DNA from: a virus
Strand: one strand, 5' to 3'
IMG/VR virus record: IMGVR_UViG_3300042923_000660
Location: 1-44,410 of that record
DNA length: 44,410 nt
Of this stretch, positions 2,711-43,914 are shown one piece after another. Both the position numbers and the translations under genes were made by a program. Under the pieces are notes generated by a model. It worked only from the letters and a program-made list of their open reading frames with translations. It ran no database searches and had not been told where the DNA came from. Each line of letters begins with the position of its first letter. Within the stretch, counting starts at the first letter, position 1.

Positions 2711-2935
2711 ATGAAAAAGATAAAATACATTAGAATGAATATTGAGAATGCCTACAGCATGTTCGATAAAGTTGATCATCCAAAAATACAAGACGGAAAA
2801 TTGTTCACAAAGGAAGAGTTTAATCAATTCAAAGAGACCATTTCCGATTGCGGGCTGTTAATTGATGATGTTGCAGAAGACGACTATCAAGTTGTGTATG
2901 AGGATGGAACGATTATAAATAAGAAATGGCGATGA
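2711..2935 (+). CDS. Small early protein, unknown function
   Basis: The 74-residue product starts at ATG after GCAGAGGATGATTAA. It is mixed charge, with a predicted helix (LFTKEEFNQFKETISD) and an acidic C-terminal half ending in GTIINKKWR. No signal or membrane helix is visible. It is part of the rightward chain of small genes. Confidence 0.6.
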   Translation: MKKIKYIRMNIENAYSMFDKVDHPKIQDGKLFTKEEFNQFKETISDCGLLIDDVAEDDYQVVYEDGTIINKKWR

Positions 2936-2972: not shown

Positions 2973-3167
2973 TTGACCTTATTAGTTTTGTCACTAGTGT
3001 CTAACGTATTGTTTAGTGCTGTTATCTTGAGATATAGAAAAGACAATAAGATTCTTAAAATAAATTATTATTTAGACAAAGCAATATTCAGTACCGCTAT
3101 TAATGGAATGCAGATTGGGAATTCTCTAAAAAGTATCCGTTCAAGAGTTTCGAATTCAAAATTATAA
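2973..3167 (+). CDS. Small membrane-anchored protein
   Basis: The product is about 64 residues with one N-terminal hydrophobic segment (TLLVLSLVSNVLFSAVILRY) and a basic soluble tail rich in Lys, Asn and Ser. The start is uncertain. TTG at 2973 lies ten bases after AAGGTGGAG, while ATT at 2970 in the same frame is slightly better spaced, and GTG at 2958 falls inside the binding site. The topology suggests a type of small inner-membrane protein. Function unknown. Confidence 0.5.
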   Translation: MTLLVLSLVSNVLFSAVILRYRKDNKILKINYYLDKAIFSTAINGMQIGNSLKSIRSRVSNSKL

Positions 3168-3193
3168 AATCAAAATATGAGGAGAGATTGAAA

Positions 3194-3379
3194 ATGAAAG
3201 TAAAAATTTATACTAATAGATTGAAAGAAGCAATTATCACAGAGGTAAATCAGAAATCAACACAGGAAATTGTTGCGTATCTTACAGGAAACAGAGATGG
3301 GTGGTATGCAACGAACAAGGTTATCATCAGAGTAAATGATATTATCCATGTTGAAAATATCGAACCCGAAGAAAATTAA
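3194..3379 (+). CDS. Small basic protein, unknown function
   Basis: The 61-residue product starts at ATG 3194. Its leader contains AAAATATGAGGAGA, a 14-base motif shared with the next three genes. The product has alternating beta-like and polar stretches (VKIYTNRLKEAIITEV, YATNKVIIRVNDIIHV) and an acidic end. It has no membrane helix. Function unknown. Confidence 0.6.
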   Translation: MKVKIYTNRLKEAIITEVNQKSTQEIVAYLTGNRDGWYATNKVIIRVNDIIHVENIEPEEN

Positions 3380-3398
3380 AATATGAGGAGAATGTAAA

Positions 3399-3659
3399 AT
3401 GAGTAACTTCGCTCAGGCACTAACTCTAATTGGCATTAAGGTAAAGAATAATGATGGTTCCAATAGGGATCTCGGTGGAATTCTAAATGACTTATCCGCT
3501 ACATGGGAAAAACTCACCACAGAACAGAAGGACACTTTGAGTCAAGTTTTCGCCGGTGAGCAGCCAATTGTATACAATATCAATAATATCAAAGGCGGAG
3601 ATCCCGATTCGTTTATTAAACAGATGAAATTGAGATCGCAATTCGGTAAAAACAATTAA
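3399..3659 (+). CDS. Miniature tape-measure-like protein
   Basis: The 86-residue product combines two pieces that in TP901-type tape measure proteins are far apart. Residues about 6-52 (LIGIKVKNNDGSNRDLGG, then ILNDLSATWEKLTTEQK, then AGEQ) resemble the core segment that in this phage's own tape measure gene reads LSLKKDDNTFKSTFDIFNDL...AGKRQ. The last 26 residues (YNINNI..PDSFIKQMKLRSQF) match the extreme C-terminus of that protein (YNIDKV..PDDFVKEMRLRSKF). The start is ATG after AAAATATGAGGAGA. Its location among early genes on the opposite strand from the tail genes is odd for a structural gene. I infer an internally deleted tape measure relic or a deliberate decoy; the function is unproven. 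Confidence 0.65.
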   Translation: MSNFAQALTLIGIKVKNNDGSNRDLGGILNDLSATWEKLTTEQKDTLSQVFAGEQPIVYNINNIKGGDPDSFIKQMKLRSQFGKNN

Positions 3660-3689
3660 ACGAAAATCAAAATACAAGGAGATGTACAA

Positions 3690-4217
3690 ATGAAATTCGC
3701 ACAAAGAAGCGTAATCGATCTAACGGTATATGATGAGAGCGGAAGTCTTGTTGTGACTCTAAATAGTCTGAAAGAAAGTTCAATCATCCTTAATTCACCC
3801 ACCCCTGCTGTTTATGTCAAAGACGCACTCTTAGATACATACTTACTAAAATTCATAGGCAGGGAAGAGAGAAGTCAATTAACTGAATTTGAAAAAGACC
3901 TCGGAACTCGGAGCTACCAAACTACAATTGTTTTTGGAAAACCTATTAAGAAAAAATGCAAGTTGATTGGCAAAGGAACATTTAGAGATAGCTATACATC
4001 GAGAGATATCGAATTCCTCTTTGAAATTCCAAATGTAGAACTGGCTTACGGGTATGACTTTGAGAACAATAATGAGAGGGCATCTGAATATGATCTTAAT
4101 TTTTTAATTCTTCCATTTAATGAAGAAGGAGATACGGTTAAACTCCGTATTAATGAGCCTTCGAGCACAGATATGCTTATTGACACACTCGATAAGACAT
4201 ATATGCGCAAATGCTAA
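3690..4217 (+). CDS. 175-residue protein, unknown, perhaps structural in origin
   Basis: It starts at ATG, with the shared leader AAAATACAAGGAGA. The product is beta-rich throughout (VIDLTVYDESGSLVVTLNSL, YQTTIVFGKPIKKKCKL, DIEFLFEIPNVEL), with an acidic middle and no membrane helix. It directly follows the mini tape measure gene and shares its leader, so the two may form a unit. The opening phrase (DLTVYDESG.LV..L) reminds me of small tail or capsid proteins, but I cannot name a family, and this is a weak inference. Confidence 0.65.
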   Translation: MKFAQRSVIDLTVYDESGSLVVTLNSLKESSIILNSPTPAVYVKDALLDTYLLKFIGREERSQLTEFEKDLGTRSYQTTIVFGKPIKKKCKLIGKGTFRDSYTSRDIEFLFEIPNVELAYGYDFENNNERASEYDLNFLILPFNEEGDTVKLRINEPSSTDMLIDTLDKTYMRKC

Positions 4218-4279
4218 ACGAGAACCTTACGATCAAACCATAATTTGATTACAAATGAAAATACGAGGAGAACGTAAAA

Positions 4280-4576
4280 ATGACAGTTAAAATTTATGAT
4301 TCTGTACTTGAGCAAATTCAAAATGAAATCGACAACTCAAAATTCCCCAAAATAGAAAACGAAGAATCTCGCCATTATTATTTTGAAGGATTGAAAGTCG
4401 CCAAACAGATCGTCGAGAGCATCCAAGACAATGATTATAGCGATTACGCTTACGAAAAATTTGAGGAGATCGTTGAATCGTACTTAGATTTAGAAGTAAA
4501 TCAAAGTTTAAGTCTATATCCAGAAGATATTTTGGAGGTAACTAAATCGCTGGTAGACGAAATGTATGAGGATTAA
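4280..4576 (+). CDS. Acidic helical early protein, unknown
   Basis: The 98-residue product starts at ATG, with the shared leader AAAATACGAGGAGA. It is predicted all-helical and very acidic (SVLEQIQNEIDNSKF, YYFEGLKVAKQIVES, YAYEKFEEIVESYLDLE). It is the last small gene before the ribonucleotide reductase pair, 47 bases upstream of the nrdB start. Function unknown. Confidence 0.65.
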   Translation: MTVKIYDSVLEQIQNEIDNSKFPKIENEESRHYYFEGLKVAKQIVESIQDNDYSDYAYEKFEEIVESYLDLEVNQSLSLYPEDILEVTKSLVDEMYED

Positions 4577-5914: not shown

Positions 5915-7585
5915 ATGAAGTGGTTAAATGAAAATAGTAGGAATTTTTTATCGCGCGGGTATTTGACAGAAGGAGTAACACCTGAACAACGTATTCGCAA
6001 AATCGCAGATAGAGCAGAAGACATTCTTGGCATCAAAGGATTTGCAGATAAATTTTATAGAAATATGGAAAACGGTTTTTACTCGTTATCAACTCCGGTA
6101 TGGTCAAACTTTGGAATTGATAAAGGCCTCCCCATTAGCTGCTTTGGGTCATTTCTTCCAGATAATATGGGGGGCATTCTGTACACACAGTCTGAAGTCG
6201 GAATGATGAGCAAATTTGGAGGTGGGACTTCTGGTTATTTTGGTGACTTGCGTCATCGAGGAGCATCAATAAAAGATAATGGACAGTCTTCTGGTGCTGT
6301 ACACTTTATGAGATTATTTGAATCGACTATGGATATTGTTTCTCAGGGTTCAACTCGTAGAGGGAGGTTCTCTCCATACTTGCCGATAGATCATCCAGAT
6401 ATTGAAGAGTTTTTGAAAATTGGTACTGAAGGTGATCCCATTCAAGGATTGACACATGGGGTAACTGTGACGGATAAATGGATGAACGACATGATTTCGG
6501 GAGATGCTGAAAAGCGCGCTTTATGGGCGAAGGTTATCCAGCGTCGAGTTGAAATTGGTTATCCCTACATTTTCTTTACAGATACAGTTAATAAAAATAC
6601 AGTGGACGTTTATAAGGATAAAAACTTAAAAATTCGTGCGAGCAACCTTTGTTCCGAGATCGCCTTGCCAAGTAACGATGAGTGGTCTTTTGTCTGTAAC
6701 TTGTCATCCATGAATTTACTACATTATGACGAATGGAAAGAAACAGATGCAGTAGAAACAATGGTATTTTTCCTAGACGCAGTTATGACCGACTTCCTAG
6801 AAAAACTTGAAAGAATGCGCGATTCCGAAAGTAAAGAGGATAGACTGGCATTCTCTTTCATGGAGAGAGCATATAATTTCGCTAAAACTAATCGTGCGTT
6901 GGGATTGGGCGGCCTTGGATGGCATTCCTATTTGCAATCCAAAATGATCCCATTTGAAAGCTTGGAAGCATCTAAATTAAATTCACGTATTTTTAGTTCC
7001 ATCCAAAAAAAGGCACACAATGCATCGAAGGAATTGGCAGCAATTTTTGGAGAACCTGAGTTGTTGAAAGGATATGGTCGTAGAAACACAACATTGACTG
7101 CTATCGCTCCAACAACATCGTCGGCCTTTATTTTAGGGCAAGTCTCCCAGAGTATTGAGCCTATCTGGTCAAACTGCTATGTGAAGGACGTTGCGAAGCT
7201 GAAAGTGACGATTCAGAATCCTTATTTGAGGGAAGTTTTAAAGTCTTATGATAAGGATACACGAGAAGTATGGAATAGCATTCGAGACAATGACGGTTCT
7301 GTGCAACATCTTGAATTTCTAAACAGCAACGAGAAAGATGTGTTCAAAACTTTTTGTGAAATCGATCAATATGTTATTTTGGATCAAGCCTCTACTCGAC
7401 AGTTATTCTTAGATCAAAGTCAGTCACTAAATCTAATGATTAATCCAAAGGTATCTGCTAAACAGATCAACGAGTTGTATTTGTTTGCTTGGGAGAATAA
7501 CGTCAAAACGCTGTATTACCAACATAGCACAAACGCAGCGCAGCAATTTAGCAAAGATAAATTGTGTTCGGCATGTGAGGCATGA
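5915..7585 (+). CDS. nrdA: Ribonucleotide reductase large subunit lacking an ATP-cone
   Basis: The 556-residue catalytic subunit reduces ribonucleotides to deoxyribonucleotides together with the upstream NrdB. All key residues are present: the thiyl-radical motif NLCSEI, the cysteine pair in PISCFGSF and FVCNLSSMN, the radical-transfer tyrosines in KTLYYQ, and the C-terminal reducible CSAC. Also typical are NRALGLGGLGWH and PTTSSAFILGQ. It is much shorter than E. coli NrdA because it begins directly at the core (MKWLNENSRNFLSRGYL), with no ATP-cone, which fits the cone being on NrdB. The start is ATG 5915, 11 bases after TGGAGG, 25 bases past nrdB. The open frame extends upstream into nrdB but without a good start. 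No intron or intein interrupts it. Confidence 0.93.
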   Translation: MKWLNENSRNFLSRGYLTEGVTPEQRIRKIADRAEDILGIKGFADKFYRNMENGFYSLSTPVWSNFGIDKGLPISCFGSFLPDNMGGILYTQSEVGMMSKFGGGTSGYFGDLRHRGASIKDNGQSSGAVHFMRLFESTMDIVSQGSTRRGRFSPYLPIDHPDIEEFLKIGTEGDPIQGLTHGVTVTDKWMNDMISGDAEKRALWAKVIQRRVEIGYPYIFFTDTVNKNTVDVYKDKNLKIRASNLCSEIALPSNDEWSFVCNLSSMNLLHYDEWKETDAVETMVFFLDAVMTDFLEKLERMRDSESKEDRLAFSFMERAYNFAKTNRALGLGGLGWHSYLQSKMIPFESLEASKLNSRIFSSIQKKAHNASKELAAIFGEPELLKGYGRRNTTLTAIAPTTSSAFILGQVSQSIEPIWSNCYVKDVAKLKVTIQNPYLREVLKSYDKDTREVWNSIRDNDGSVQHLEFLNSNEKDVFKTFCEIDQYVILDQASTRQLFLDQSQSLNLMINPKVSAKQINELYLFAWENNVKTLYYQHSTNAAQQFSKDKLCSACEA

Positions 7586-15012: not shown

Positions 15013-16275
15013 ATGTCAAAATTAGATGTAGCAATTCAAGAATTTGTTAAGAAGCATGAGGAAGAGGTGAATCGAAACAGGTATACATATGAAAAGAATA
15101 AGCTACTTGATTTAGTTGGTGATGATCTTGCCGAACTTATGAAAACTCATAAATGTTTTATTGCTGGAGGAGCAATTACCAGTATCTTTACCGGAGCAGA
15201 GATAAATGATCTAGACGTTTATTTCCGCGATGAGAAATCCTGTGTCGCCTTCGTCAAGCATTGTTGGGAAGACAGTATCGGGCGAGTCAATATGCTTACA
15301 AAAAAATCTATCCTAATGAGATCAAACGATCAGGATGTCCAGCTTATTCACTTCGATTACTTCAATACCGCACAGGATATTTTCAACACTTTTGATTTCA
15401 CGGCATGTATGGGAGCCTTTGATTTTTCAACGGAACAATTCGTTTTGCATGATGATTTCATGAAACACAACTCTCAACGTATCCTCAAGTTTAATAAAGA
15501 AACTGCATTCCCTATCATTTCATTATTGCGTGTACAAAAATACAACAAGAAACAATACTCAATCTCCAAACCGGAATTTCTACGCATTGCAATGAAGTGT
15601 ATGACGTTGAAAATTAACACTGTCGAGGAATTAAAGAATCATCTTGGAGGAATGTATGGAATCAACTACGACAAGATTATCAAATTTGAGGATGGAGAAG
15701 AATTTTCGTTAGATAAAGTTATTGATAAAATCGCAGACATTACTCATAGCGAAGACTACTTTAAGAAACCTGTAGAAACCACTTATGATGATTTGCAGGA
15801 TGTTATCGATACTATTCAGAACAAAAGCCCTGTCATTGTCGAGTTAAAGGGAAGGATTTATAGAATCGGCTATAATAATTCGCTCAAGGCATTGTCTGAA
15901 CGACCTGCTTCTTATCAAGAAATTTCAGCACAAACCTTTTTCGAGAATAAGAAGTTCTATAAATTTGTTGAGAAAGAAAATGAAAATACATATCGCAGCC
16001 ATTATGATAAGACGTTCACATATGAAATTGGTCAGGGAGCAACTGCAAAAGGAGATTATCTGTATTTCAATGAACAATCTGAATTTATGACATCTTCATA
16101 TAAAGGGAAGGGATCATTGATCGAGGCCACAATTCACCATGACGATTTCGTAAGAAAGGATGGAACTACAATTCTAACTAAGACATGCAAAGTAATTCGT
16201 GAGGTTCCAAAAGAAGAGTATGAGAAGTGGACGAAGCAAATTGATAATGATGAGTTCGAAAATATCTATTGGTAA
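15013..16275 (+). CDS. Nucleotidyltransferase-fold protein
   Basis: The 420-residue protein starts at ATG after AGAGGAGAAATTAA. Near residues 48-72 it has FIAGGAITSIFTG followed by INDLDVYF. This is the GG...DxD signature of the polymerase-beta nucleotidyltransferase superfamily, in the arrangement seen in poly(A) polymerase and CCA-enzyme heads. A third acidic cluster may lie in IHFDYFNTAQDIFNTFDFT (about 116-135). The last 150 residues are beta-rich with no family I recognise. Possible roles include RNA or tRNA tailing, or a toxin-like transferase. Substrate unknown; only the fold is claimed. Confidence 0.7.
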   Translation: MSKLDVAIQEFVKKHEEEVNRNRYTYEKNKLLDLVGDDLAELMKTHKCFIAGGAITSIFTGAEINDLDVYFRDEKSCVAFVKHCWEDSIGRVNMLTKKSILMRSNDQDVQLIHFDYFNTAQDIFNTFDFTACMGAFDFSTEQFVLHDDFMKHNSQRILKFNKETAFPIISLLRVQKYNKKQYSISKPEFLRIAMKCMTLKINTVEELKNHLGGMYGINYDKIIKFEDGEEFSLDKVIDKIADITHSEDYFKKPVETTYDDLQDVIDTIQNKSPVIVELKGRIYRIGYNNSLKALSERPASYQEISAQTFFENKKFYKFVEKENENTYRSHYDKTFTYEIGQGATAKGDYLYFNEQSEFMTSSYKGKGSLIEATIHHDDFVRKDGTTILTKTCKVIREVPKEEYEKWTKQIDNDEFENIYW

Positions 16276-22390: not shown

Positions 22391-22649
22391 TTGATGCAAT
22401 TGATGCAAAAGTTGATGCAAAACCTAGTGGGAATAGATGTGAAACGTTGGTATGACAAAAGAATGAGACCATCTGTACACACACGAATTACCCCTTGATA
22501 CTCGTACATATTGGGATTAAATCGGAATCAAATGGACGATTTAGGAATGAGCCATTTAGTCATATGAGGACATCTATCTATCGGTGAATTTGTTGTTATA
22601 CCGGGGTTTGTTACATGTTATAAATTGATTTGATGCAAACTTGATGCAA
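22391..22649. other. Candidate attP region with five TTGATGCAA arm-type repeats
   Basis: The gene-free stretch 22368-22700 holds five exact direct copies of TTGATGCAA. Three lie on the left (22391-22399, 22400-22408, 22412-22420) and two on the right (22630-22638, 22641-22649). Two clusters of short direct repeats around a 209-base centre, between xis and int, is the plan of arm sites flanking a core in tyrosine-recombinase attP regions. The rightmost copy doubles as the -35 of the integrase promoter. The core crossover is not identified; TGTAC/GTACA near 22473-22508 is one candidate inverted pair. Confidence 0.7.
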
Positions 22650-22669
22650 AAGGTGTTTTGGGTTATAAT
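22641..22669 (+). promoter_or_regulatory. Integrase promoter
   Basis: TTGATG (22641-22646) and TATAAT (22664-22669) are separated by 17 bases, upstream of the integrase ribosome binding site. Its -35 lies within the fifth TTGATGCAA repeat, so integrase or Xis binding there could repress int. Confidence 0.75.
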
Positions 22670-22700
22670 ACAGGAAAGGACAAGTCAGAGGAGTGAGCGG

Positions 22701-23819
22701 ATGGCTGAGATACGCAAAAATGAAGAAGCGAAGAAGAATCCTTACTGGTTTCAAATCATGGTGAACGGTAAACGTGTAACGAAACGAGGATTTAAATCAA
22801 AGACAGAAGCGAAACTTGCAATGGCTGAAGTGGTGAACGAGTTAAACAAAGGTGACTATGTTGATCCAACAAAAATGACATTCGGTGATTATTTCAAAGA
22901 CTGGATTGCGAATAGAACTAACTTGGCAACGACAACACGAATCACATATGAATCGTATTACAAAGTTCATATTGAAGATAAATCAATTGGCAAAATTCCG
23001 TTACCTAAGTTATCGGCATTGAATGTGCAAAACTTTATCAAGGAACTTAGGGAAAAGCCATTATCAGATGGAATGGTTAAGGGGATATTCAAGACAATAA
23101 ATGCGTCACTGAATGCTGCTGAGAAAATGGGCATCGTCAATAAGAATGTAGCGGATAAGATTGAGAAGCCGACTGTTAAAAAGCAGGAGAGAAGTATCTG
23201 GAGTAATGATTCCATTAAGCATATGCTCACCTTGTCAAAAGGGGAATCGCGATATTGGATAGCTGTATTTTTGGCTATTATGACCGGGATGAGGCAAGGA
23301 GAGATACTTGGTCTGAAATGGTCTGATGTAGATATAGAAAAGAAACTCATTTACGTTAGACGTGGATTGCGGAAGGATTCAACGGAATTTACAGATCTAA
23401 AAACAGAAAAGAGCAGACGTATTATTTCGATTTCTCCGAGGACGGTAGAGGTATTACAACAACATAAAGAGATGATCGAACTTGAGAAGTTATCAAAGAA
23501 AAAATACACAGACCATGATTTAGTTGTTTGCACCAGTAAAGGAACACCGAGTAGTTCGAGTAGAATCATTGCAACTTGGAAAAGAGTTCAGGACAAGTAT
23601 AAACCGGAGAGTGAGCCTAGAATTACTTTCCATGATTTGCGACATCAAAGCGCAAGCATTATGTTGAATGATGGAACGGATATTCGAATCGTATCTCAAC
23701 GTTTAGGCCATTCAAATGTTTCCACGACATTGAATGTTTACTCACATTTATTGCCGAACGCTCAGGAAGAAGCAGCACAAAGTTTAGATAATCTTATAGC
23801 CGATGATGTAATGAAATAA
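22701..23819 (+). CDS. int: Tyrosine-family integrase
   Basis: The 372-residue site-specific recombinase has an N-terminal arm-binding domain (WFQIMVNGKRVTKRGFKSK, residues 16-34), a SAM-like core-binding domain (60-160) and a catalytic domain. The catalytic residues are Arg198 (TGMRQGEILGLKW), a Lys around 234-237, His311 and Arg314 (HDLRHQSAS), His337 (RLGHSN) and the nucleophile Tyr347 (NVYSHL). It starts at ATG 22701 after CAGAGGAGTGAG; an upstream in-frame ATG at 22641 lies within the repeat and promoter. It would integrate and, with Xis, excise the phage. Confidence 0.93.
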   Translation: MAEIRKNEEAKKNPYWFQIMVNGKRVTKRGFKSKTEAKLAMAEVVNELNKGDYVDPTKMTFGDYFKDWIANRTNLATTTRITYESYYKVHIEDKSIGKIPLPKLSALNVQNFIKELREKPLSDGMVKGIFKTINASLNAAEKMGIVNKNVADKIEKPTVKKQERSIWSNDSIKHMLTLSKGESRYWIAVFLAIMTGMRQGEILGLKWSDVDIEKKLIYVRRGLRKDSTEFTDLKTEKSRRIISISPRTVEVLQQHKEMIELEKLSKKKYTDHDLVVCTSKGTPSSSSRIIATWKRVQDKYKPESEPRITFHDLRHQSASIMLNDGTDIRIVSQRLGHSNVSTTLNVYSHLLPNAQEEAAQSLDNLIADDVMK

Positions 23820-38214: not shown

Positions 38215-41200
38215 TTAATATTTAAACTTGGAGCGAAGTCTCATTTCTTTGACAAAATCATCGGGATTGTTGGCAACCACTTTATCGATATTGTAATGAT
38301 TGTGAACAACATTTCCGCCAGAAGAAGCGGTTGCTGTTTTGGGAGTAAGACCAGTGAGCATGTTAGCCATACCTTTGAATCCACCGATAATATTTTCAAT
38401 CATATTGATTGGATTCTTTATTACGGCCTCACCGTTAAGTAACTTGAAAAATCCTTCGTTATTCTTAATCCCAAATTTACTGGACAATATTGAGGATATC
38501 GATGTATCGTCTCCGACAATGCCTGATCGTAGACCATCGTGGTATTTGAGCAAATCCCATTTGCCGGTGGCGGGATTAAACTTTCCTCCGAGATCCTTGG
38601 CAATCTGCTGGTTATCGGCTTCTAACTTCTTCCTCTCATCGGGAGTGGCTGTCTTCCAAGCTTCAGAATTATTAGCCATCTCTTGAAGTTTGGAATCGCG
38701 ATCAGAATCTCCAGTTGGATTATAAGTCGCACCATTCACTGCTGACGAAGACATACTGATCATTTCGGCATACATTTGTTTTGCAGCGTTTAGTTTAGTG
38801 CTAAGAACGCCAAGTATTTCATCCCACTTTGTTCCGTAGATTCCTTTTACAGCTTCCAATGATGTTGTAGTGATGGATGAAATTTCAGTCCCATGCAACA
38901 TGAACGCTGTTTTTTCTTCTTCAAACTTTTCATTTCGAAGATTTATTTCATCTTGTTTTGCTTTAATCTTCGCTTGTAGTAAGTCAATAGCCTGTTTTTT
39001 TGCCTGTTCAATTTCCCACTTACCATAATCATCATTCTTATCTTTTAATTCATCAAGAAGATCGTCCAACGTATCTTTTCTAGATGAGGCAAAATCTTCT
39101 TGCATTTGATTAAGTTTATCCGTTTCCTCTTTAACCTTACGAGGATCAGCAACCCATTCAAATTGACCATTTTGGAATAGTCTTACATTCTTCTCGTTTT
39201 GAACATTTTGAAGGACTTGTTGTTGTTTAATAATCTCATTTTGTTTCTCTAGCGCATCGGCTTTTTCCTGTTCTAAGCCAAGTTGTTTGGCGAGTTCATC
39301 CGAGATAGAAGTAAGAGTACCGGAACGATATATTTCAGCCTTTTTCTGTAAGTCAGCAATTTCAAGTTGTCTCTTCGAACGCTCTTCTGATATTTCTTCG
39401 GCATCCCATTTTGCTTGTAATGCATCAATTTGGGATTGATAAGAATCGACTATTGCTTGATCAATTTTATTCTGAACATCGATAATATCCTGTGCAGCGC
39501 TCACTATCGAGTTCTTTAATTCTTCTTTGACCAATTCGATATCGTCGGTAATTTTTAATATCTCGTCCGAATTTTCTCTCCATCCTTGTTTTAGGAGCTG
39601 GAGGGTGCTAAACAGTTCTTCAACTTTTTCCTTTTGTTTCTCAAGTTTTTCTAACTCTGCGTTTCTTTCCTTGACGGATAACTTCGTGTTAGACGCTATT
39701 TTTTGTGATTTATCCGCGATTGAGTTTAATAATTGTTCGTATTTGAGAGAGCCATTGCCATCTGCATCAAACCAAGATTCGGTGTTTAGCGACATTCCGA
39801 TCTCTTTGCCAAGGGTAGCCGCTTTTTTCCTAGCTTCGTCCGCTTCTTTACTCATGTTAGTTTGAGCGACTTTTAGAGCGATGATTGCCTTTTCTTGTTC
39901 TTTAATTTTCTTAGTTGTTAATTCGACAACCGTTATTTCATCTTTGGCCTTTTCTGCAGCTTTTATTTTCCGCTCAAGCGACTCGATATTTCTCTCACGG
40001 ACTTCATACTCGGCATTCATCGAGTTAATTAGTTCTTCCGTTAAGTCAATTTGCTCCATTGCTTCTTTAAGTTGAGGGGAGGCAGGAGCTGTTTTAGCCT
40101 TTTTATCGGTAACATCTTTTGGAGCCTGTTTAAAGTCGATTCCTTTTAAGCTTTGAATGCCATTAATTTGATCGATTAGCGCTTTATATTCATTGAACTT
40201 ACTCTCAAGAAAGGATGCTTCAGGAATAGAAGTTGAGTTAGCAAGGAATCTCGCCTTATCTAATTTCTCAAGTGCTTCAATTTCCCCGGAATAGATACTA
40301 AGTTTAACTACTAATGCTTGGCTTGCGGTCTCTAATTCTATTCTCTTTTGTTCTAATCCATTTTTGAACTCAGTTTCCTTGGCTACCATCAAAGCAAATA
40401 CGGCATCTTTATTGAGAGTTAATTGACCATTCTCGTTTTGTAATGCTGTCAGTAGGGCAGGATATTCCTTGAGTGTGGAAATCAGAGTTTCTTGGCTTAG
40501 AGTTTGATTAGAGTTTAAAGTTTCGTAAACGTTAGCGAGAGAAGTGATACTGTCGATAGCAGACTCGGAGACACCGGTTAGTGCTTCGAAGGCTGTTTTT
40601 GCCTTATCGGTACTATCTACGACTTGTACTGTTTCTTCTTTAAGTGAAGTCAGTTTCTCTACCAAGTCACCATTAATCTTGATATTTGGTAGCTGAGAAA
40701 TTTGATCAATTAGACTGTTCTTATCACTATTTGGAGAAGAATTTACCGCTTCACTAATTGCTACAATATTTTTCTCGTATTCAGCCAAAGTGGAATTACT
40801 TAGAAGACCACTCACATCATTAATAAGGGCGCGTTGAGTATCATTAAACTCTTTCTGTGAAAGGATATTCTGCCTTATTAAGTCTTTCTTATCCTTTTCA
40901 TGAGCGTTAATACGGTCATAAATTGGTTGCAGTTCAGTTAATCTATCTTTTACTTTGAGTAATGCACGTTCCCATTCTTGAGTTGTTTCAGGGGAGCCGC
41001 CTTGGGTTTTAACGATATTGTTGTTATGATCAAGTATTTCGGAGTAAATCTTTTCAAGTTCTTTGTAATATTCAACTTCACCAAGAACTTTTTCTCCTGC
41101 ATTCTCAATTTTGAAATCGCCAAACTCTGGTGAGTAATCAGCCCCTCCATCTGAATTACTCTTGTAGTCAATAACTTCTCGGACTAATTCTGGTCTTCCA

Positions 41201-43914
41201 AGTTTTTTGGTATTTGCATCGAGGAAAATCTGATCTTCTTTTATTTTTGTTTCTAACGCTTTTTTGTTTAGAGTGTCGATGAGTTTTATTTGGTCTTCAT
41301 ATTTTCCGTTAACCAAATCGATACTAGATGCTTCGCTTCCAAAAGAATCAATTAACTTGTTTTGGAGTTGGAAAAGCTCTTCTTTCACCGAACTATCATC
41401 TTTGACCGCTTGATAGTTTTCCTTGTAATAGGTTAAGGTACTCTTCAAAGTATCTGTTTGTTCTTTATAAGCGCGATCATTTTCTTCCATAGCGCTAGTG
41501 TTACCCTTGATGCTACCCGTAAAAGCCGTAAGAGCCATGGTAATACCAGTTATGATAGCGATAGGAGCAATGAACCGAGCGAGACTAGCCAGAGTTACAT
41601 TTAAACCCCTCATTGCTGCAGCAGTAACACCGCTTGTTGCGGCAACTGATCTTAGTTCAAGTTTGAGAAGACTTAATTTTAAAGGGATAGTTTGAAGCAT
41701 TGCATACAGTGGAGTTAGTCCCGATTTGGTGAATAGAATAACCGAAGCTGTTGCCAACCCCACGACAGTTGGAAGTAAACCAATTGAGTTAGCAGTTCCT
41801 CCGAACACCCTAACCAATGTAGTTCCTGCATCAATTAAACCCTTCAGACTGTCCGAGTCAATAGCATTCTCCCAAAATCCAATAACCTCATTCTTGAATT
41901 GTGCTACTTTTGCCTTCATGCTATCAAGATAAACGCCATTCTCTCTTGCGGCAGAACCAGTTGAATTTAAAGCAACAGAAAGGGATGCTTGAGCATCTTT
42001 CCAGTTATCGAGGAGGGAGGTGATGATATTCCCCTGACGCTTACCGGCAACAAGTTCTGTAATATCGGCCTTCTGGAAATCAGTGAGCATTGTTGACCAC
42101 ACAGTAGACAAATCGTTGAATATGTCGAAGGTGGATTTGAAGGTGTTGTCGTCTTTTTTCAAAGATAATCCCAGACTATTAAATTTCTCTTCTAAGCTTG
42201 GAATTAAACCGCCTAAGTCTTCGCCTTCTTCGGATATTCCGCGAATCCGCATCGAAACGGTCTTTAAGGCAGTTCCGACAGATACGGGATCTTGAAGAGT
42301 CGAGTTCGCAGCGGTAATGAGGGCAACTGACTGTTCAACTGTGTTTCCAGCTGCACTTAAGCTGGATGCAGAACGGCGAAGTGCTTCACCGATACCAGCA
42401 GAGGAAATCGCGAACTTATTTCCAACCTCGTTGTAAATATCGACAATATTTCTTATTTTTTGACCTTGTGAATCGACCTCGATACCAAAACCTTTGATTG
42501 CCGAAATTAATGCCTTACTAGCGTCCTCAGCACCCATATCGCCAACGTTGGCATATATGGTCGTTTCGGCAGCAAGTAGTTTTGCTTGATTCATGGTATA
42601 ACCAAGTCTTGCCCATTCCGTGGTTGCGTTAATTACATCCACAGTAAGCGCACCAAGCGATGTCGCTGTTTTATTTACATCATCGAGAAAGTCTTTATAT
42701 TGATCTCCAGTCGCATCCGTAACTTTCTGGAGATTGGTCATTGCTGTATCTAATTCGTAGATACTTCTTATACCTGACTGGAATGCACGAAGCGGAGCAT
42801 AAAATGCCGTTGCAGCCAAAATCCAAATTGGAAATTTCTGAAAAGCTGTACGCATGGCCTCGCCCATCTTCATTGAGTGGCTAGTAGCCGTAGATGTTTG
42901 AGCTATAACACCTTTTAATCCGTTTTCTACTTCTCTAAGTTGATTCCTATAGTTGCCAAGATTCGCATCCGAGAATTTTATTCCATTCAGTTGTGCGCTC
43001 AGCCCGTTTAATTGTGCCTTGGCATTTGTATCTGATCCAAATCTTCTAATGGCATCGTTAATTTTATTTTGTTGAGCAGCAATTGATTGTCTAAAATCTA
43101 ATTCTTTCTTTGCGTTTTGTTGAAGGGCGAGAAAATGTTGCTTATCTCTAGCTTCAGTTCTTTGTTGATTAGTGTTTAAAGCATTATAATGATCGCGATC
43201 AATTTTATCGATCTGCTTAAACATTTGCTCGATTTCACTTTTGTATTTATTGCGATTAATCATTAAGGCTTGGTAGTGAGCTTTTTCAATCGCTAACACC
43301 CTAGCGTTATTGTCTCTTAAAGCGTTAAAGTGTGCTCTGTCAACAGCTTCTAAATCTTGTTTCGCTTTTTTATAATTGGTCAGCTCACTAGAGCCAACTA
43401 ATGTTTGACCATCAGACTCTAAGCGTTGATTCGTTACAGTATAACCTTGCGACGATTTAACATTGAAACCTGTTATCGCATTGGATCGGTTACGAGTAAC
43501 TTTTATAGATTCGATACCGGCCTTATTTGCCTCATCTAAACTTTGAGCAAGTTTATGCGCTGCATCTGATTCGCCCTGCATAGCCTTTTTATTTTCATCA
43601 TGGACTGTCTTTGACTTCTGGATGATCTCGCCATTCTTCAGAACACTTTTTGTTACAGTTTCAATTGAACCATCTAATCTCTTATAAACATCTTGGGATT
43701 CGGAGATTACTTTATTCTGTTCGGAAGAGATTGCTTTCATTTTTTCAACTGCGCGAATAAAGGAGTTGATTTGTGTTCCAAAGTTATTTGGTACTTCTAT
43801 TTTTAGTTTTAAGGAGTTAACCTTTTTTTCTAACCCCGATATCGCAGCATTGATTTCACCAATTGATTTACCAATATTGACACCGGTTGTTATTAAAATC
43901 CTTGTATCGTCCAA
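38215..43914 (-). CDS. Tail tape measure protein (TP901 type)
   Basis: The 1,899-residue protein sets tail length and sits in the tail tube. It starts at TTG 43914 after AAAAGGAGATGAGAAT. The N-terminal 350 residues are coiled coil and include four H[FY]xAL units (194, 212, 241, 259). The TP901 core follows (IRSIYELDTAMTNLQKVTDA, WARLGYTMNQAKLLAAETTI, SMRIRGISEEGEDLGGL, AGKRQGNIITSLLDNW). Hydrophobic segments lie near residues 740-810 (SLARFIAPIAIITGITMALT), then long coiled coils, and the C-terminal tail YNIDKV..PDDFVKEMRLRSKF. The last motif is copied in the mini gene at 3399. Confidence 0.95.
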   Translation of the reverse strand: MDDTRILITTGVNIGKSIGEINAAISGLEKKVNSLKLKIEVPNNFGTQINSFIRAVEKMKAISSEQNKVISESQDVYKRLDGSIETVTKSVLKNGEIIQKSKTVHDENKKAMQGESDAAHKLAQSLDEANKAGIESIKVTRNRSNAITGFNVKSSQGYTVTNQRLESDGQTLVGSSELTNYKKAKQDLEAVDRAHFNALRDNNARVLAIEKAHYQALMINRNKYKSEIEQMFKQIDKIDRDHYNALNTNQQRTEARDKQHFLALQQNAKKELDFRQSIAAQQNKINDAIRRFGSDTNAKAQLNGLSAQLNGIKFSDANLGNYRNQLREVENGLKGVIAQTSTATSHSMKMGEAMRTAFQKFPIWILAATAFYAPLRAFQSGIRSIYELDTAMTNLQKVTDATGDQYKDFLDDVNKTATSLGALTVDVINATTEWARLGYTMNQAKLLAAETTIYANVGDMGAEDASKALISAIKGFGIEVDSQGQKIRNIVDIYNEVGNKFAISSAGIGEALRRSASSLSAAGNTVEQSVALITAANSTLQDPVSVGTALKTVSMRIRGISEEGEDLGGLIPSLEEKFNSLGLSLKKDDNTFKSTFDIFNDLSTVWSTMLTDFQKADITELVAGKRQGNIITSLLDNWKDAQASLSVALNSTGSAARENGVYLDSMKAKVAQFKNEVIGFWENAIDSDSLKGLIDAGTTLVRVFGGTANSIGLLPTVVGLATASVILFTKSGLTPLYAMLQTIPLKLSLLKLELRSVAATSGVTAAAMRGLNVTLASLARFIAPIAIITGITMALTAFTGSIKGNTSAMEENDRAYKEQTDTLKSTLTYYKENYQAVKDDSSVKEELFQLQNKLIDSFGSEASSIDLVNGKYEDQIKLIDTLNKKALETKIKEDQIFLDANTKKLGRPELVREVIDYKSNSDGGADYSPEFGDFKIENAGEKVLGEVEYYKELEKIYSEILDHNNNIVKTQGGSPETTQEWERALLKVKDRLTELQPIYDRINAHEKDKKDLIRQNILSQKEFNDTQRALINDVSGLLSNSTLAEYEKNIVAISEAVNSSPNSDKNSLIDQISQLPNIKINGDLVEKLTSLKEETVQVVDSTDKAKTAFEALTGVSESAIDSITSLANVYETLNSNQTLSQETLISTLKEYPALLTALQNENGQLTLNKDAVFALMVAKETEFKNGLEQKRIELETASQALVVKLSIYSGEIEALEKLDKARFLANSTSIPEASFLESKFNEYKALIDQINGIQSLKGIDFKQAPKDVTDKKAKTAPASPQLKEAMEQIDLTEELINSMNAEYEVRERNIESLERKIKAAEKAKDEITVVELTTKKIKEQEKAIIALKVAQTNMSKEADEARKKAATLGKEIGMSLNTESWFDADGNGSLKYEQLLNSIADKSQKIASNTKLSVKERNAELEKLEKQKEKVEELFSTLQLLKQGWRENSDEILKITDDIELVKEELKNSIVSAAQDIIDVQNKIDQAIVDSYQSQIDALQAKWDAEEISEERSKRQLEIADLQKKAEIYRSGTLTSISDELAKQLGLEQEKADALEKQNEIIKQQQVLQNVQNEKNVRLFQNGQFEWVADPRKVKEETDKLNQMQEDFASSRKDTLDDLLDELKDKNDDYGKWEIEQAKKQAIDLLQAKIKAKQDEINLRNEKFEEEKTAFMLHGTEISSITTTSLEAVKGIYGTKWDEILGVLSTKLNAAKQMYAEMISMSSSAVNGATYNPTGDSDRDSKLQEMANNSEAWKTATPDERKKLEADNQQIAKDLGGKFNPATGKWDLLKYHDGLRSGIVGDDTSISSILSSKFGIKNNEGFFKLLNGEAVIKNPINMIENIIGGFKGMANMLTGLTPKTATASSGGNVVHNHYNIDKVVANNPDDFVKEMRLRSKFKY

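Follow-up and report, generated by a model that had tools for sequence, protein, structure and literature searches.

A Miniature Tape Measure Gene in the Early Region

The window analysed here, 44,410 nt of the IMG/VR virus record IMGVR_UViG_3300042923_000660, carries in its early region a small open reading frame (ORF) whose predicted product is, judging from its sequence, a tape measure protein (TMP) reduced to 86 residues, without anything that precedes the last quarter of the core domain and without about 1,200 residues behind it, as counted against the resident TMP. Such a fusion of a core piece to the extreme C-terminus had been proposed in an earlier note on this DNA, and the searches bore it out for both halves. 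In profile searches, residues 5-54 of the mini protein matched PHROG 4211 (tail length tape measure protein) with E=3e-5, and further matches were found to PHROG 14917 (E=4e-4) and PHROG 1293 (E=0.01). The Pfam family PhageMin_Tail aligned through its positions 152-200/201 (E=1.5e-3), with a score of 18.9 bits that stays under the gathering cut-off of 33.2 bits and covers 49 of the 201 positions. On the other hand, the C-terminal half aligned with the very end of the resident TMP (12 of 24 residues identical, 19 similar, E=5.5e-5), which was the only significant match to the mini protein among the 391 ORFs of the window. The absence of a profile match, which the earlier note had named as fatal to a TMP identity, thus did not occur. 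On the structural side, which the note had also suggested, the predicted model is poor (mean pLDDT 62.7) and a fold search of the PDB gave no significant match. A sequence search of the PDB gave no match either.

Each of the two matches is short and modest when taken singly, as would be expected if a short helical protein resembled TMPs by chance. Such an explanation is hardly credible, since there are two independent matches to the same protein type, collinear with it, and the core scored 33-39 bits with a hidden Markov model (HMM) purpose-built from 16 TMP cores, where the maximum of 300 shuffles was 13. As the order of core and C-terminus is that of a TMP, the ORF is best described as an internally deleted TMP gene. 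Sequence comparison therefore establishes the homology of both halves and their fusion, that is, the TMP origin of the mini gene (Table 1).

Table 1. Features of the mini gene, the resident tape measure gene and related loci; positions preceded by a locus label belong to other genomes.
Feature	Position	Strand	Remarks
Mini tape measure ORF	3399..3659	+	86 aa, ATG start, Shine-Dalgarno GAGGAG
Mini core, residues 5-55	3411..3563	+	end of PhageMin_Tail TMP core, closing at conserved AGxxQ motif; profile matches, core HMM
Fusion junction (...FAG-EQ-PIVYN...)	3557..3566	+	G005 group I intron 3 at homologous AG codon
Mini C-terminus, residues 59-82	3573..3644	+	homologue of extreme TMP C-terminus; alignment with resident TMP
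Leader copy 1, before gene at 3194	3166..3193	+	
Leader copy 2, mini gene leader with Shine-Dalgarno	about 3372-3399	+	
Leader copy 3, before gene at 3690	3663..3690	+	
Leader copy 4, before gene at 4280	4252..4279	+	
Resident tape measure gene	38215..43914	-	1899 aa; PhageMin_Tail E=4.5e-20; PHROG 4211 E=2.6e-130
Resident TMP part homologous to mini core	42037..42174	-	residues 581-626; 30% identity
Resident TMP part homologous to mini C-terminus	38224..38295	-	residues 1874-1897; 50% identity
Stand-alone TMP-core ORF of G011	L114:4172-4729	-	185 aa; PhageMin_Tail scan of relatives
Group I introns in PhageMin_Tail core of G005	L100:6320-6588, 6860-7042, 7277-7472	-	
Second PhageMin_Tail-like matches	W06:105615-105995, W15:97603-97983, W03:107473-108072, W01:106363-106710		

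Lineage of the Two Halves and the Site of the Deletion

The earlier note had also assigned the mini gene to another lineage than the resident tape measure gene, a claim that survives for one half only. The core is closest to the TMPs of the Psychrobacillus phage Perkons (34%), of Geobacillus E3 (33%) and of others, ahead of the resident TMP, whereas the C-terminal 30 residues share 46% with the resident TMP against 21-22% for two other aligned TMP C-termini. A Perkons-like core joined to a resident-like C-terminus argues against an origin by mere duplication of the resident gene. The resident type of the C-terminus may reflect either descent or the need to fit the same partner. The two halves also differ in G+C content (0.42 and 0.32), and sequence scans for donors of the core or of the C-terminus found none.

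The place where the core ends coincides with a site of intron insertion. Three group I introns (Rfam E=1e-16, 2e-9 and 2e-5) interrupt a single TMP core in the relative G005 (IMGVR_UViG_3300013102_000002), and TMP cores are also broken in further relatives and reference phages (G010, G011, E3, MaeS, TR-TP1 and CB457P1), in some cases with HNH ORFs. As far as sequence goes, this distribution marks the TMP core of these phages as a hot spot for group I introns. TMP genes broken up by introns that carry homing endonucleases have been described before (PMC10448857). The third intron of G005 comes after the codons LAG, at the very position where the core part of the mini protein stops (FAG/EQ), so that the deletion could have started from a break at an intron or homing-endonuclease site in this AG codon. 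This coincidence is only a lead, because introns and homology detection both favour the conserved AG motif. Apart from this, in several SPbeta-like and other large phages PhageMin_Tail also gives a weak match at a second place, further along in the region of the TMP gene, which suggests an internal domain duplication.

A Cassette of Small Early Genes with a Common Leader

The early-operon position described in the earlier note, with intact frame, start and leader, was confirmed. The gene precedes nrdF/nrdE and thymidylate synthase and is the second of four consecutive small genes (starting at 3194, 3399, 3690 and 4280), all preceded by a common 28-nt leader that begins AAAATCAAAATAYRAGGAGA... 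and shows 71-86% pairwise identity among its four copies. The core motif of this leader has four exact occurrences in the window, all of them in the four-gene array, where 0.25 would be expected even allowing one mismatch, and none was found in the other fetched loci apart from a copy of the same region. The leader has the look of a cassette boundary, perhaps one for gene exchange, or it may be a common translation leader. Spacing is compact, the next gene starting 30 nt after the mini ORF. Read in frame, the mini ORF has codon log-odds of 0.253, against values between -0.47 and -0.50 for the remaining two forward frames, and in comparison with 0.263 for the resident TMP and 0.221 for nrdE; its codon usage is thus frame-specific and equal to that of other genes of the phage. 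Gene neighbourhood alone points to early expression. No signal of RNA structure was obtained over the mini gene (z=-0.29), and an Rfam search of the window gave no match.

Two neighbouring ORFs also deserve a brief description. The gene at 3690-4217 (+; 175 aa) has relatives of 29-35% identity in G004 (locus L007), G002 (L005), G009 and G010, the one in L007 lacking the leader, and shows weak matches to the PHROG 2729 virion structural protein (E=4e-4) and to Pfam DUF7629. It was considered as a second protein derived from a structural one and rejected, since PHROG 2729 is the one match in this direction and the relatives lie in small-gene contexts. The 74-aa ORF at 2711-2935 (+) shows a weak similarity to a TBP-TOTE domain (E=0.011) and matches PHROG 38669 (E=8e-6).

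The mini protein is not itself a TMP, since the middle is missing, the score is below the Pfam cut-off and the gene is about 35 kb from the tail genes. Its 86 residues are not the tail-proportional length seen in the 1899 residues of the resident TMP, and it lacks a TMP N-terminus as well as hydrophobic or repeat regions. Moreover, its gene sits outside the tail module (27-44 kb of the window) and on the opposite strand. For a TP901-1 TMP that would give no tail at all, extrapolation leads to 127 aa (PMC5099701), a length that the mini protein does not reach, so that a role as a tail measure is very unlikely.

Kept Gene or Recent Relic

Related phages had been pointed to as a place where the same short gene might occur, and it was looked for in the relatives' records and in viral and phage collections without being found. 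No copy of the fusion appeared in viral contigs, GTDB genome contigs, phages, plasmids or the records of relatives retrieved through NrdE or DNA polymerase; peptide patterns yielded no close homologue in viral_contigs and genome_contigs, and a DNA polymerase bait had no match in genome_contigs. A tblastn search of phages and plasmids with the mini protein returned weak core matches to other TMPs. Matches of residues 36-85 to Vibrio phages (best E=0.07; E=4 for the C-terminal peptide alone) were treated as chance.

How long a TMP core stays recognisable under neutral drift was estimated by simulation. Functional TMP cores, truncated like the mini core and scored leave-one-out with themselves and their near relatives removed, gave 36-63 bits, which places the mini core (33-39) at the low end. 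When such cores were allowed to drift neutrally, the share that still reached the mini score fell from 31% at 10% nucleotide divergence to 11% at 15% and to 3% at 20%, and at 30% no core reached it; an 86-codon ORF stayed open in 30% of the simulations at 10% divergence and in 10% at 20% (indels excluded). Past about 15% nucleotide divergence the core signal is usually erased, and therefore the fragment is either young or maintained.

A first reading takes the gene as a recently captured relic, the product of illegitimate recombination from the TMP of an unsampled phage, functionless and so young that its frame is still open. This is consistent with its absence from every relative and collection searched, with a divergence since capture below about 10-15%, as the simulation permits, with the rapid turnover of small early cassettes between relatives and with the unequal G+C content of the halves. 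A leader shared with functional-looking neighbours, the compact spacing, the phage-like codon usage and an in-frame fusion that ends in a native-like C-terminus and a stop all speak against it, as does another stand-alone TMP-core gene, found in a relative, whose 185 codons are still open in spite of its divergence. As no copy was found in the collections or relatives, we hold a recent relic to be as likely as a kept gene, and neither of the two can be put forward other than tentatively. Even as a relic, the mini gene would still show the transfer of TMP pieces into early accessory cassettes.

The latter gene belongs to G011 (IMGVR_UViG_2615840593_000003), a distant relative in whose early region, as read from its sequence, an independent TMP-core gene stands alone, about 77 kb away from the tape measure gene of that phage. 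The 185-aa protein matches PhageMin_Tail (74-195, E=3e-4) and PHROG 4211 (E=1e-7), and tblastn gave 28% identity to staphylococcal SPbeta-like TMPs (E=1e-7), its best matches being the TMPs of other phages and not its own. The gene has a Shine-Dalgarno sequence and a codon score of 0.508 in frame versus -0.38 and -0.34 under the usage of its own genome, and it adjoins a gene of PHROG 18122 with a homologue in the early region of the window, at 15013. Its structural model is poorer still (mean pLDDT 40.1), and pairwise comparison with the mini protein gave no significant similarity. Altogether, a stand-alone early-region TMP fragment is present in two of the 25 genomes with a recognisable TMP (9 from this work and 16 reference phages); neither these 16 reference phages nor another 44 viral records yielded a further stand-alone TMP-core ORF. 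That large temperate phages repeatedly carve early TMP-derived microproteins, in order to counter TMP-targeting defences or to sabotage rival tails, is a generalization that we consider unlikely.

Possible Function as a Competitor of the Tape Measure Protein

Tail assembly is a recently recognised target of anti-phage defence, and interference with it is an established strategy of prophages and satellites (PMC11364771, PMC12987554). In this line, Rta of PLE11, a tail-assembly inhibitor of 80 aa, acts through the TMP, escapes from it mapping to TMP residues 314-387 (PMC12987554), a stretch within the TMP_3 core domain of the ICP1 TMP. TMP_3 is the counterpart of PhageMin_Tail by position only, homology between them not being proven. 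Tai proteins of prophages and satellites likewise inhibit tail assembly and are met by a counter-defence, Ati (PMC11364771). As for the C-terminal half, a TP901-1 TMP without its last 30 residues yields heads only, and the TMP C-terminus has been placed at the Dit-Tal initiator complex (PMC5099701), so a C-terminus set free would presumably bind the hub or some other partner of the TMP. A free TMP piece in which part of the core is fused to this hub-binding end offers itself as a candidate decoy or dominant-negative protein, and its gene is small enough for simple expression tests.

The reading that we would set beside the relic, with the same reserve, is that a TMP was captured, lost its interior and has been maintained as a small early protein in competition with the full-length TMP, in the first place as a decoy. 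An in-frame deletion of about 1,200 codons in a TMP gene would have brought the AG motif at the end of the core next to the last 30 or so codons, and the product would have been placed behind the leader common to the early cassette and kept as a small protein. Translated early, the mini protein may bind a partner of the full-length TMP, either a tail-assembly protein or a TMP-targeting inhibitor of the Rta or Tai kind, and compete with the TMP for it; we infer this binding because it keeps the tail-initiating C-terminal element and a core piece. As a decoy, it would soak up a Rta- or Tai-like inhibitor of the host, a satellite or a prophage, a version favoured because the gene lies in the phage's own replication operon and its C-terminus is closest to the resident TMP. 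A dominant-negative action on the tails of co-infecting relatives and the timing of the phage's own tail assembly come next. Several points count against a kept competitor: the mini core is unlike that of the resident TMP, although a decoy standing in for this TMP would be expected to look like it; the mini core scores at the low end of the functional range; the fusion has no homologue in the collections; and its poor structural model has no match. Nor is a TMP-targeting inhibitor known to occur in the host of this phage.

Dominant-negative inhibition, in which the free C-terminus would occupy the Dit/Tal hub of related co-infecting or superinfecting phages and leave tailless particles, a result that Tai and Rta bring about by different routes, draws on the dependence of tail initiation on the C-terminal residues and on the strategies of prophages and satellites cited above, and an integrase at 22641-23819 suggests that the phage is probably temperate. 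We consider it quite improbable, since a C-terminus most like that of the own TMP should poison the phage's own tails, and no associated immunity or counter-gene was recognised.

Comparison with Known Systems

The competitor that we tentatively propose can be set against several known systems. With the TMPs of the TP901-1/SPbeta type (PF10145 PhageMin_Tail, PHROG 4211) it shares the homologous end of the core and the extreme C-terminus in the same order, but these proteins have roughly 1,500-3,000 residues and are encoded in the tail module, whereas the mini gene encodes 86 residues in an early operon. Satellite-encoded TMPs (PLE tmp) likewise represent an additional tape measure gene located elsewhere than in the usual tail module; they are, however, near full-length and built into virions, while 86 residues cannot span a tail. 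The 185-aa protein of G011 is likewise encoded by a stand-alone early-region gene of TMP core, but without the TMP C-terminus. Likened by description, Rta of PLE11 is similar in size and its proposed target process is TMP-dependent tail assembly, although it has no reported TMP homology, is satellite-encoded and acts on a contractile tail. By description as well, the Tai/Ati systems of prophages and PICIs resemble the mini gene as small accessory genes, carried by prophages, that act on tail assembly and come with a paired counter-defence, and differ in that the part of their description drawn on here reports no TMP-derived sequence.
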